Part shown: piece by piece, positions 165-15,229 of the stretch | Layout: each line of letters opens with the position of its first letter | Position numbering within the stretch: position 1 is the first letter of the stretch | Source of the DNA: Actinokineospora pegani | GTDB lineage: Bacteria > Actinomycetota > Actinomycetes > Mycobacteriales > Pseudonocardiaceae | Direction: 5' to 3' | DNA: 44,351 nt | Assembly: GCF_009745975.1 (NCBI RefSeq) | Contig: NZ_WHOL01000063.1 | Span: forward strand, 1-44,351 | Translations under genes and position numbers: made by a program | Notes under the pieces: model-generated | The model's database searches: none | Seen by the model: the letters and a program-made list of their open reading frames with translations, nothing else | Told to the model about the DNA's origin: nothing

Positions 165-1013
165 GTGATCGTGGACGGAGTCGCCCTACTAGGCCCGGCA
201 GACGTGCGCCGCCTGGCGAACGACCTGGACGTGCGCCCGACGAAGAAGCTCGGCCAGAACTTCGTCCACGACCCCAACATCGTCCTGCGCATCGTCGGCG
301 CCGCGAACCTCGTCGACACCGACCACGTCCTGGAGGTCGGCCCCGGGCTGGGATCGCTCACCCTCGCCCTTCTCCCCGCCTGCGCGAGGGTCACCGCGGT
401 CGAGATCGACCCGGTCCTGGCCGCCCGCCTCCCGACCACGGTCGCCGAGCAGGCCCCGGACCTCGCGGGCAAGCTCACCGTGCTCCAGCGCGACGCCCTC
501 AGAGTGGCCGCGACCGAGCTGGGCGAGCCGACGGCGCTGGTGGCGAACCTGCCCTACAACGTCGCTGTGCCGGTGGTGCTGCACCTGCTGGCGGGCCTGC
601 CCTCGCTGCGCACGGTCATGGTGATGGTGCAGGCCGAGGTGGCCGACCGGATGGCGGCCGGGCCGGGGTCGCGGGTGTACGGGGTGCCCAGCGTGAAGGT
701 GGCCTGGTACGCCGAGGCCAAGCGGGTGGCGATGGTGCCGAGGTCGGTGTTCTGGCCAGTGCCCAACGTGGACTCGGCCCTGGTGCTGATGACCCGGCGG
801 CCGCAGCCCGAGGCGACGCGCGAGGACGTGTTCGCCGTCGTGGACGCGGCGTTCGCGCAGCGGCGCAAGACGCTGCGGGCGGCGCTGGCGGGGTGGGCCG
901 GGTCGCCGACGCGGGCGGCGGAGGTGCTCACCGCGGCCGGGGTCGACCCCGGGGCCCGGGGGGAGCAGCTCGCCGTGGGGGACTTCGTGCGGATCGCCCA
1001 GGCCGCGCTGTGA
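165..1013 (+). CDS. rsmA: 16S rRNA dimethyladenosine transferase RsmA/KsgA
   Basis: Dimethylates the two adjacent adenines in the 3'-terminal hairpin of 16S rRNA using S-adenosylmethionine, a late step in small-subunit assembly. The 282-residue protein has the family's usual length. The SAM-binding motif EVGPGLGS is at about residues 57-64 and the catalytic NLPYN motif at 128-132. The N-terminal KKLGQNF segment is typical of KsgA. GTG at 165 is chosen because it sits 7 nt after a TAGGCT hexamer, consistent with leaderless translation. The gene order (rsmA before ispE) is the conserved actinobacterial one, although here a MetN-like gene with its own leader is interposed. Confidence 0.97.
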
Positions 1014-1045: not shown

Positions 1046-1123
1046 GATGTGCGGGACGGGCGGTCGGTTCTTGTCCCGGCAGGCTTGCTTCCGATCACCG
1101 CATCAGGTGTACTGCAAGAGCAT

Positions 1124-1209
1124 TCCATCCCGAGCGACTGAGAGACCTGGCTCGCTGAAGTCGCAGCAACCACCCCTCGTGGGCAGGTGCTACCGCCAGG
1201 AGCGATGGA
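1124..1209 (+). promoter_or_regulatory. SAM riboswitch aptamer (SAM-I/SAM-IV clan)
   Basis: The P1 helix pairs TCCATC (1124-1129) with GATGGA (1204-1209). P2 pairs GCGACT (1134-1139) with AGTCGC (1159-1164) and carries a kink-turn-like GAGAGA...GCTGAAG arrangement. A SAM-box-like GCAACC follows at 1165-1170, then a short P3 (CCAC with GTGG) and the GGTGCTA segment at 1187-1193. These match the S-box order recalled from the family. The exact class cannot be fixed by eye. A MetN-like gene downstream supports methionine/SAM control. The 3' strand of P1 overlaps the Shine-Dalgarno sequence (GGAGGA, 1207-1212) of a short ORF, which suggests that bound SAM blocks translation of that ORF. Confidence 0.85.
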
Positions 1210-1219
1210 GGAAAACAGG

Positions 1220-1303
1220 ATGCAGATCCTCACCACGCGCCGGGTCATCGACCAGTGTCGACGTACCTCCACCGGGTGTCGACGCGCGAACGCAACTCGC
1301 TGA
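1220..1303 (+). CDS. 27-residue Cys-containing leader peptide (uORF)
   Basis: ATG at 1220 follows GGAGGA (1207-1212) at a 7-nt spacing and ends in TGA at 1301. The peptide begins MQILTTRRVID, continues QCRRTSTGC, and contains two Cys residues, both encoded by TGT followed by CGA. It resembles, from memory, the short actinomycete leader peptides with an LTxRRHIDL..R..SA.CR pattern annotated ahead of sulfur-metabolism and ABC transport genes. Its Shine-Dalgarno sequence is partly sequestered by riboswitch helix P1. Inference: translation or stalling on this ORF, governed by SAM and perhaps by Cys supply, tunes expression of the MetN-like gene 121 nt downstream. It could also be a fortuitous ORF, but RBS, spacing and motif agree. 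Confidence 0.7.
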   Translation: MQILTTRRVIDQCRRTSTGCRRANATR

Positions 1304-1424
1304 ACCGTCCCCATTCAGTACGCCTTCGCACAATCCCCCGGCCCGCTCCTGCCACCGGTGTGTCCTCAGTAGACATCCGAACCGGTGTGGCGGGTCGCCG
1401 TCGCGCCCGTTGGAGATACCGAAC
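1304..1424 (+). other. Distal leader between uORF and metN-like gene
   Basis: No gene is seen. The 9-mer ACCGGTGTG occurs twice, at 1354 and 1381. A hairpin pairs GCCACCGGT (1351-1359) with 1381-1391, a 9-bp stem with a 2-nt bulge and a 21-nt loop. The metN-like Shine-Dalgarno GGAGA lies at 1412-1416. The hairpin could form part of an expression platform, or part of an attenuator if ribosomes on the uORF alter folding. Confidence 0.5.
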
Positions 1425-2432
1425 GTGATCACCGTAGAGAACCTGTCCAAGTCCTTCCAGGCCGACGGCGGCCCCGTGCACGCGCTGCGGGACGTCACCC
1501 TCGACGTGCCGACCGGCGCCATCACCGGCGTCATCGGCCCGACCGGGTCCGGCAAGTCCACCCTGGCCCGCCTCGTCGCCCTGCAGGAGCGCCCCGACTC
1601 CGGGGTCGTGCGGGTCGACGGCTTCAACGCCTCCACCCTGGACCCGCGCAGGCTGCGCGCCGCCCGCCGCCGCATCGGCGTGGTCAAGCACGACGAGCTC
1701 CTCGACGGTCGCACCGCCGCGGGCAACATCGCCCTGCCGCTCGAGCAGGCTGGCGTCGACGGCCCGCAGCGGCGGCAGAAGGTCGGCAGGCTGCTCGACC
1801 TCATCGGCCTGACCGACAAGGCCGCGCACTACCCCGACGCCCTGACCCCCGGCCAGCGCGCCCGGGTCGGCATCGCCCGCGCCCTGGTCGGCGACCCCGG
1901 CCTGCTGCTGGCCGACGAGCCCACCCGCGGCCTCGACGCCGACGCCGCCGCGGGTGTGCTGACCGTGCTCGACCGGGCCCGCGCCGAGCTGGGCGCGACC
2001 GTCCTGCTGGCCACCGACGACGCGAGCGTCGTGCGCCGGGTCGCCGACGACGTCGCCCTGCTCGAGGACGGCGCGCTCGCCGAGGCGGGCCACCTGCTGT
2101 CGCTGGCCCAGGACCCGACCAGCGCCGTGGCCCGGGCGCTGCTGCCCGCCATCGACGCCCCGGCCGCGGCCAAGGCCAGGCACGACCGGCTCGCCGAGGT
2201 CGTCCTGGTCGGCTTCGCCGCCGTCGGCGCGCTGCTGCCCGAGGCCACCGCGCGCACCGGGGCCAGCATCTCCGTCGTCGGCGGCGGGCTGACCCGCATC
2301 GGCGAGACCCCGGTCGCCCGGTTCCTGCTCGGTGTCTCCGGCGCCCGCTCCGAGGCCGCCCTCGGCTGGATCGCCGAGCGCGGCGGCAGCGTCGTGCGCG
2401 TGGGTCGCCAGCCGCTCGCCGCCTGCGCCTGA
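1425..2432 (+). CDS. MetN-like methionine-type ABC ATPase with NIL domain, orphan and motif-degenerate
   Basis: The 335-residue protein has an ABC ATPase domain (about 1-235) and a C-terminal NIL domain (about 258-335), the architecture of MetN, the ATPase of the D-methionine/methionine importer. Walker A GPTGSGKST (38-46) and Walker B LLLADEP followed by RGLD are intact. Other motifs depart from MetN: the region of the Q-loop reads IGVVKHDELL without Gln, the signature reads LTPGQ instead of LSGGQ, and the switch His is replaced by Asp (ATDDAS). No permease (MetI) or binding protein (MetQ) gene adjoins it. GTG at 1425 is chosen for GGAGA 8 nt upstream. The SAM riboswitch and Cys leader ORF indicate control by sulfur amino acid status. 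Whether it powers transport with a distant permease or has a regulatory role is open. Confidence 0.8.
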   Translation: MITVENLSKSFQADGGPVHALRDVTLDVPTGAITGVIGPTGSGKSTLARLVALQERPDSGVVRVDGFNASTLDPRRLRAARRRIGVVKHDELLDGRTAAGNIALPLEQAGVDGPQRRQKVGRLLDLIGLTDKAAHYPDALTPGQRARVGIARALVGDPGLLLADEPTRGLDADAAAGVLTVLDRARAELGATVLLATDDASVVRRVADDVALLEDGALAEAGHLLSLAQDPTSAVARALLPAIDAPAAAKARHDRLAEVVLVGFAAVGALLPEATARTGASISVVGGGLTRIGETPVARFLLGVSGARSEAALGWIAERGGSVVRVGRQPLAACA

Positions 2433-2554: not shown

Positions 2555-3514
2555 GTGCTCGCAGTCGTCCCGCCGCCGATAACCGTCCGCGTTCCCTCCA
2601 AGGTGAACCTGCACCTGGGCGTCGGGGACTTGAGGGACGACGGCTACCACGACCTGTCCACCGTCTTCCAGGCGCTCTCGCTGACCGACGACGTCACCGT
2701 CGCGGTCGCTGAGGACCCCGGGGTCGAGGTGCACGGCGAGGGCGCCGACTCGGTGCCCGCCACCCAGGACAACCTGGCCTGGCGCGCGGTGCGGGCGCTG
2801 GCCGAGCACGCGGGCCTCGACGCCGACGACCTCAAGGTCCGCGTGGTGATCAACAAGGGCATCCCGGTCGCGGGCGGCATGGCGGGCGGCAGCGCCGACG
2901 CCGCCGCCGCCCTGGTCGCCGCCGCCGCGCTGTGGCGGCTCGACATCGGCCGCGAGGAGTTGACCGCCGTCGCGGCCACCATCGGCAGCGACGTCCCGTT
3001 CGTGCTGCACGGTGGCACCGCGCTGGGCACCGGGCGCGGCGAGCGGCTGGTGCCCGTGCTGACCAGGCACACCTTCCACTGGGTGCTGGCCTTCGACCGC
3101 GGCGGGCTGTCCACCCCCGCCGTCTACGGCGAGCTCGACCGGCTGCGCGCCGAGGGCGACCCGCCCCGGCTCGGCGCGGTCGAGCCGCTGCTGGAGGCGC
3201 TGGCCTCCGGCGACCCCCGGCGGTTGGGCGGGTTGCTGGGCAACGACCTGCAGGCGGCCTCGGTGTCGCTGCGACCCGCGCTGCGCCGCACCCTGCGCGC
3301 GGGCGTGGAGGCCGGGGCGCTGGCCGGGATCGTGTCCGGCTCCGGGCCCACCACCGCGTTCCTGTGCGAGGACGCCGACGCCGCGCTGCGGGTGGCCGCG
3401 GAGCTGTCCGGCGCGGGCGTGTGCCGCACCGTGCGGGTCGCGCACGGCCCGGTCCCCGGGGCCAAGGTGGTCAGCGACGACACCGCCCCGCGCCCGACCA
3501 CCCCGCCCGACTGA
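2555..3514 (+). CDS. ispE: 4-diphosphocytidyl-2-C-methyl-D-erythritol kinase IspE
   Basis: ATP-dependent kinase of the MEP isoprenoid pathway that phosphorylates the 2-hydroxyl of CDP-methylerythritol. It is a GHMP kinase: the substrate-binding [11 protein letters not shown] segment is near residues 14-24, and the glycine-rich ATP loop with [14 protein letters not shown] is at about 107-120, including the catalytic Asp115. The C-terminal GSGPTTAF motif is present. The 319-residue length is normal. The start is GTG at 2555, 6 nt after a TAGGCT hexamer. The ABC-F gene follows after 19 nt with its own ribosome binding site, so the two are probably cotranscribed. Confidence 0.96.
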
Positions 3515-15158: not shown

Positions 15159-15229
15159 CTCCGCCGCCAGGATTCGAACCTGAACCATTGGAACCAAAAT
15201 CCAAGGTGCTGCCTTTACACCACGGCGGA
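15159..15229 (-). tRNA. tRNA-Gln (anticodon TTG)
   Basis: The 71-nt cloverleaf reads on the minus strand. The acceptor stem TCCGCCG (15229-15223) pairs with CGGCGGA (15166-15160), and the discriminator is G at 15159. The anticodon stem TTGGA/TCCAA encloses loop TTTTGGT, giving anticodon TTG. The T-arm has GGTTCGAATCC. The 3' CCA is not encoded, as usual in this group. Its reads-through direction is toward the GGDEF gene. Confidence 0.95.

Follow-up and report, generated by a model that had tools for sequence, protein, structure and literature searches.

A SAM-I riboswitch whose P1 helix carries the Shine-Dalgarno sequence of a conserved leader-peptide ORF upstream of a metN-like gene in Pseudonocardiaceae

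Comparison of 102 orthologous loci from the family Pseudonocardiaceae shows that the predicted P1 helix of a SAM-I (S-box) aptamer holds the Shine-Dalgarno sequence (SD) of a conserved leader-peptide ORF, which is followed by a metN-like gene. We analyzed this arrangement in a 44,351-nt stretch of Actinokineospora pegani DNA (the window), which belongs to a genome of 6.44 Mb in 128 contigs. The riboswitch, the leader ORF and the metN-like gene sit between ksgA and an ispE-like gene (Table 1). The anatomy of this SAM-I/leader arrangement is well supported by the comparison of sequences.

Table 1. Features of the riboswitch and leader locus, with positions in the window.
Feature	Position	Strand	Basis or remark
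ksgA	165-1013		NCBIfam match; gene upstream of the aptamer
GTGTACTGC, possible -10 region (TACT)	1107-1115	+	shortly before P1; inferred from sequence
SAM-I (S-box) aptamer	1122-1211	+	RF00162 covariance match
P1 helix, 5′ strand TTCCATC	1123-1129	+	cmscan alignment
P1 helix, 3′ strand GATGGAG	1204-1210	+	contains the first bases of the leader-ORF SD
Leader-ORF SD, GGAGGA	1207-1212	+	sequence; 7-nt spacer to ATG 1220
Leader ORF, 27 codons + TGA, product MQILTTRRVIDQCRRTSTGCRRANATR	1220-1303	+	ATG 1220, TGA 1301-1303
Invariant terminal Cys codon TGT	1277-1279	+	102/102 loci
C-rich, G-poor stretch after leader stop, candidate Rho loading region	1304-1353	+	C 0.52, G 0.16
Distal inverted repeat CCACCGGTG (1352) / CCGGTGTGG (1382)	1352-1390	+	no T-run behind
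metN-like gene SD, TTGGAG	1410-1415	+	sequence; 1411-1415 predicted paired with 1267-1271
metN-like gene, ABC ATPase + NIL domain	1425-2432	+	GTG start 1425
ispE-like gene	2555-3514		identity by reading

An earlier note on this DNA had proposed a SAM riboswitch at this site. The Rfam model RF00162 matched the aptamer over its full length (model positions 1-108) with 58.9 bits against a gathering score of 44.4, and it was the top of its clan at 1122-1211, where only the best clan member was reported, which supports the proposal. The aptamer terminates in GATGGAGGA. The P1 strand GATGGA (1204-1209) and the GGAGGA of the leader ORF have the three bases 1207-1209 in common, which confirms the overlap and the coordinates claimed for it, and in the predicted fold positions 1207-1210 are paired with 1123-1126. 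Because P1 contains the leader SD, the folded aptamer and a ribosome would compete for the same bases.

By sequence, the aptamer and the SD precede the leader ORF in the window. As a raw count, 86 of the 102 loci have TA...T or TACT in the 25 nt that precede P1; no consensus sigma-70 promoter was present in 1000-1450. Elsewhere in the window, a tRNA gene lies at 15159-15229 on the minus strand.

To collect the loci, we searched 200 genomes of the family with the metN-like protein as the query; 168 of them had a match with an E value of 1e-60 or better. We read one locus from each of 102 of these 168 genomes (L107-L208), 30 returned by the search and 72 picked to cover genera; they span 35 of the 46 genera sampled, all within the one family. 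A separate set of 75 loci held a sole close relative (L003, 75% identity), and the other 74, at 23-37% identity, were left out. In 102/102 loci the core of the aptamer is followed by GATGG and by a leader ORF in frame. The earlier note had expected related leaders to keep both the ORF and the overlap, and among the 102 loci compared there was none that lacked the ORF or carried its SD outside P1. On the 3′ strand of P1, 101 loci read GATGGAG and a single one reads GATGGGA. The helix has 5-7 pairs, and because it is nearly invariant, covariation lends it no support.

For 94 of the 102 loci, a script took the first in-frame candidate as the start codon of the leader ORF. A strict pattern for the motif [VI]D..R.....C matched 94 of the loci and a looser pattern matched all 102, the variants that needed the latter being L110, L167, L168, L181, L183, L185, L186 and L187. 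The peptide has the form LT.RR.[VI]D..RR....C, in which R, D and R, together with the Cys at the end, did not vary across the 102 loci; in a wider alignment of 20 sequences, R, R, D, R and C were invariant. Substitution rates in the peptide core, pooled over 20 pairs, were dN 0.040 and dS 0.358, a dN/dS of 0.11, and by this measure the core is under purifying selection. The 27-codon ORF at 1220-1303 that the earlier note had read is very probably real, given its presence at every locus and this ratio.

We compared the peptide with known families. With E values of up to 10 allowed, the window peptide still had no match among the NCBIfam models, NF042933 and NF042934 included, and the window leader ORF alone was unmatched by Pfam. 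Among 24 aligned relatives, nine gave weak matches to NF042933, the "Ms5788A family Cys-rich leader peptide" (best E 0.0021), and one matched NF042934 (E 0.045). With the actinomycete Cys leader peptides, that is these two families and the mycobacterial Cys-rich uORFs, the window shares a short ORF with LT.RR.[VI]D..R....C near its stop. The resemblance to actinomycete leader peptides that had been suggested for the window was upheld by the comparison.

The window leader ORF has two separate Cys codons, both TGT, at 1256 and 1277, and no run of Cys codons near its stop. The earlier note had pointed to both codons, and both are there, but as a conserved unit only the terminal TGT stood: one Cys was invariant in the 102 loci. 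At the earlier position (D+2) the residue was Cys in 45 loci, Gly in 53 and another in 4, with TGC used for the Cys in 38 loci and TGT in 7. The terminal Cys, nine residues past the conserved Asp, was encoded by TGT in 102/102 loci, and the Cys codons of the 102 metN-like genes were TGC 184 times and TGT 6 times. Other late Cys codons were TGT 10 and TGC 4 at D+7, and TGT 7 and TGC 1 at D+10. Since TGT and TGC are synonymous, selection on the peptide cannot explain the choice, and a decoding or an RNA constraint can. UGU is decoded by G-U wobble. The bases around the TGT vary, which would make a base-paired partner for it less likely.

We also read the 116 best-scoring loci of standalone leader peptides across the class, many of them near-copies and not the full set. 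Where local GC was at least 0.6, all but one of 87 loci (86), and likewise 71 of 72 distinct peptides, had TGT as the terminal Cys codon; at GC 0.5-0.6 it was TGT in 3 of 5. Below 0.5, TGC was used in 17 of 24 loci and TGT in 7 (8 and 6 of 14 distinct peptides). By these counts the choice of TGT is general in the GC-rich members and not in the GC-poor ones. With TGC 17 times and TGT 7 times, the loci below 0.5 GC do not fit cleanly into an account in which the terminal Cys simply takes the rare codon. The low-GC standalone peptides (among L259-L376) mostly had TGC, the opposite of the GC-rich ones.

The reading that we prefer, and to which we would give an even chance, is a two-signal leader in which SAM would gate ribosome loading on the leader ORF, a shortage of Cys-tRNA would stall the ribosomes, and Rho would provide the output. 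At high SAM, P1 would be closed and the leader ORF untranslated; no ribosome would occupy the C-rich stretch or any other part of the leader, and Rho would stop transcription before metN. At low SAM, ribosomes would load on the leader ORF. With ample Cys-tRNA they would finish and leave, and Rho would still be able to load, while with scarce Cys-tRNA they would stall at the invariant UGU near the stop, the start of the C-rich stretch would be covered, and transcription would continue. The metN-like gene would be on only when SAM and cysteine were both low. We infer the sign of this response: with SAM as an OFF switch, leader translation would have to favour metN. Against a sensor of tRNA charging, a single invariant Cys codon gives such a sensor little to work with. 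The stop codon lies 2-11 codons past the terminal TGT, and therefore a stalled ribosome would cover little of the C-rich stretch.

The base composition after the leader stop suggests Rho. In the first 50 nt, averaged over the 102 loci, C was 0.43 and G 0.21, and C exceeded G in every locus. The mean C-G was 0.224, a value that 4% of the 50-mers of the window attain. Control stretches gave -0.012 after the ksgA stop (positive in 34 of 91 loci; paired p 3e-16 versus the leader) and 0.010 after the metN stop (positive in 53 of 102). After the stop of the standalone GC-rich leader peptides the mean was 0.165, positive in 65 of 72. We found no intrinsic terminator, that is a G+C-rich stem with a T-run, in 1000-1450, and TTTTT in 1 of the 102 distal leaders. 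A classical attenuator of the intrinsic-terminator type was rejected because no G+C-rich stem followed by a T-run was present in that stretch. The distal leader described in the earlier note, 121 nt long (1304-1424) with an inverted repeat of its own at 1352 and 1382, was confirmed; across the 102 loci the distance from the leader stop to the metN-like gene was 60-227 nt. The GTCC..GGAC hairpin occurred in 55 of the 102 loci and was discarded as a universal element for that reason.

The chief rival to Rho as the output is translational attenuation, in which the SAM gate and the leader ORF would be the same, but the leader would fold over the metN SD and a ribosome on the leader ORF would open it. 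We regard this as possible though rather unlikely. The fold predicted for the window leader favours it: at minimum energy the metN SD pairs with bases of the leader ORF (Table 1), the terminal TGT contributes two bases to a pairing with 1404-1405, and the SD is predicted to be nearly closed (0.01 unpaired, versus 0.26 in shuffles). Such control is also stated for cysteine genes of M. smegmatis in the accessible part of PMC13236596. Over 51 of the 102 leaders, however, closure of the metN SD did not exceed that in dinucleotide shuffles (0.223 vs 0.228, p 0.82), and with the distal part alone the SD was slightly more open (0.262 vs 0.204, p 0.03). The whole-leader fold of the window was not unusual (z -0.99), and the distal hairpin, being present in little more than half of the loci, also speaks against this output. 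Sequestration of the metN SD as a general output was set aside as unsupported in the 51 leaders tested, although the window's own fold shows it. Because that fold closes the metN SD, we slightly lowered our confidence in Rho and raised that in translational attenuation. We favour Rho because of the C-rich stretch, the lack of a T-run terminator and a metN SD that is not closed above the level of shuffles.

Other explanations change what the leader ORF does. Conservation is not special to Cys, for R, D and R equal it in the 102 loci and R, R, D and R do so in the 20-sequence alignment; this would fit arrest by the nascent peptide, with LT.RR.[VI]D..RR....C jamming the exit tunnel upon some metabolite instead of a shortage of Cys-tRNA and with SAM gating the loading. 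Selection on a peptide leaves the synonymous use of TGT over TGC, 102:0, unexplained, and we consider such arrest unlikely. We judge it similarly improbable that the leader ORF is a mere relay for ribosome loading, with SAM acting on the mRNA through lost leader translation and no second signal. A B12 riboswitch is reported to act on ppe2 through a uORF in the accessible text of PMC11260477, but a relay would need neither a conserved peptide (dN/dS 0.11) nor a fixed TGT, and the stop-start overlap is missing here, with a gap of 60-227 nt in its place. A further view, in which SAM would switch metN alone and the ORF would be spurious, could appeal to the shortness of the ORF and to its lack of a Pfam or NCBIfam match by itself; with the ORF in 102/102 loci, a fixed motif, a fixed SD and that same dN/dS, we hold it to be highly improbable, and a chance ORF was ruled out by the conservation.

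The gene behind the leader had been called MetN-like, which is right as far as its ABC ATPase and NIL domains go. In the window protein the Q-loop (KHDE), the signature (LTPGQ) and the H-loop (TDD) are altered, and Walker A (GPTGSGKST) and Walker B (ADEP) are intact; three of the four catalytic positions checked are changed (Q-loop Gln, signature Gly and H-loop His), and the Walker B Glu is kept. The MetN equivalog model TIGR02314 scored 201.5 bits on this protein, below its cut-off of 499.7. No MetI or MetQ gene adjoins the metN-like gene in the window, and a search for MetQ (PF03180) found none in its genome at E 0.001; the MetQ family had a match in 128 of 200 genomes of the family, 116 of them above the cut-off.

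In 42 of the 102 loci metN is followed by metI and metQ. The pair was not seen in the other 60, though the downstream stretch read was short and some cases may have been missed. All 42 loci with metI and metQ retain the Q-loop Gln, signature Gly, Walker B Glu and H-loop His. Among the 60 without them, 58 had altered ATPase motifs; all four positions were lost in 48 and all four kept in 2 (L167 and L168). The Walker A Lys and Walker B Asp were retained in 60/60 of these loci. Pairwise dN/dS of metN ranged from 0.025 to 0.254 in 13 pairs without metIQ and from 0.074 to 0.199 in 9 pairs with it, and because of these values we take the altered MetN proteins to be still under purifying selection. 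A quick tree calls for four switches between presence and absence of metIQ, and well-supported branches force three of these. The nucleotide site that remains, along with the NIL domain, suggests that the altered MetN may be a sensor.

The other SAM-I site of these genomes lies directly before a threonine-synthase-like gene. We read 60 such loci, the best-scoring matches (30 from the family set and 30 from the class set), and a threonine-synthase-like motif followed the aptamer in all 60. The P1 3′ strand started with GATGAG in 58 of the 60, as identified by script, and GATGAGGAG was present in 37. As in the window, this strand (GATGAG...) enters an SD, but there the first start codon is that of the structural gene, whereas in the window it is that of the leader ORF, with 60-227 nt to follow. 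Because the threonine synthase sites show the same kind of overlap, there is nothing special in an aptamer over an SD; the window stands out in that a leader peptide takes the first start codon.

Twenty genomes of the family without a close metN homologue had 14 SAM-I sites besides the best site of each genome. A leader-peptide ORF of the same kind followed 11 of the 14, and the other three (L396, L397 and L405) were followed directly by an acetyltransferase-like gene. Four of the 11 leader-bearing sites (L402, L403, L408 and L409) scored below the Rfam cut-off, and at L403 the ORF with the motif starts farther from the SD than at the others. The terminal Cys codon of these 11 SAM-linked leaders was TGT in nine and TGC in two. 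Pfam placed a luciferase-like monooxygenase and a DAO-type oxidoreductase among the genes downstream of these leaders; one of two monooxygenase fragments was above the Pfam cut-off, and a lipoprotein-like ORF had no Pfam match. One genome (G004) had six SAM-I sites (L398, L404, L406-L408 and L410), five of them followed by leader-peptide ORFs, which precede monooxygenase-, oxidoreductase- or lipoprotein-like genes.

Beyond the family, we examined 21 of 30 loci from 21 genomes of the class with weak or extra SAM-I matches. At least three genomes, from two further families, carry SAM-linked leader ORFs (L422 and L438; L424; L426), those of L422, L424 and L426 being spotted by eye and that of L438 by script. 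At L396, L397, L405 and L435, the SAM-I P1 directly enters the SD of a gene that reads as acetyltransferase-like, an unexpected SAM target. At L436 and L437, in actinomycetes whose genomes measure about 2.5 Mb, a SAM-I aptamer precedes a gene that reads as peroxiredoxin-like. The leader-peptide family had a match in 234 of 296 genomes of the class at E 0.001, and no SAM-I core was found within 250 nt upstream of the standalone leader peptides (0/116 loci). The genome of the window has a second leader peptide, free of SAM-I (L240, G000:C61:15805), with the product LTRRRAVDFCRVRSSLCR and an ORF downstream that reads as sulfurtransferase-like.

Leader peptides of the tnaC type are linked to Rho. 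The window is like tnaC in having a short ORF beside a possible Rho loading region, and differs from it in signal and peptide; Rho is read here from base composition. Mycobacterial Cys-rich uORFs were reportedly the subject of Canestrari 2020, and from these uORFs the window differs in having an SD of its own inside P1 and no Cys run. They are described as leaderless ORFs with Cys runs in the accessible parts of PMC4633059 and PMC1262725, the latter of which also mentions tna. In Streptomyces lividans, according to the accessible text of PMC8079986, metNIQ is preceded by a leader peptide. SAM-I in Xanthomonas acts mainly on translation and also senses uncharged initiator tRNA through its expression platform, according to the accessible part of PMC7270179. 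The window resembles it in the proposed second, tRNA-related signal; in Xanthomonas the platform binds the tRNA, and that text describes no leader ORF.

The closest precedent is ppe2 of M. tuberculosis. In the portion of PMC11260477 available to us, the B12 ligand partly masks the SD of a uORF and ppe2 depends on translation of that uORF. The uORF and ppe2 overlap in AUGA, its action is mainly through termination-reinitiation, and it is said to be partly conserved. By sequence (GATGGAG, 101/102), the window likewise has a uORF SD inside a helix that the ligand would stabilise, but its aptamer is a different one and a stop-start overlap is absent (121 nt). The earlier note had called it unusual for a riboswitch to gate a regulatory ORF. 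That is so against the threonine synthase sites, which are gated directly, but less so given the B12 riboswitch and uORF of PMC11260477, as far as that text is accessible. The parts are already known, namely SAM-I switches, actinomycete Cys leader peptides and a riboswitch acting through a uORF. For a SAM-I riboswitch joined to a leader peptide, we found no description in the open-access literature, subscription papers being outside the scope of the search.

If the reading is true, a SAM riboswitch would target another sensor rather than a gene, and both halves are small enough to rebuild. The fixed TGT would pose a sharp claim, namely that a leader peptide can be tuned through the choice of a codon. 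We tentatively put forward, with some doubt, that this may be a portable two-input module of actinomycetes, in which SAM-I would meter ribosomes onto a Cys leader ending in UGU with Rho as the output, spread over different genes and in 58 of the 102 loci driving a MetN relative with a decayed ATPase, a possible sensor of sulfur status. The leader-peptide family is wide in the class, and therefore many sulfur genes may share such control.
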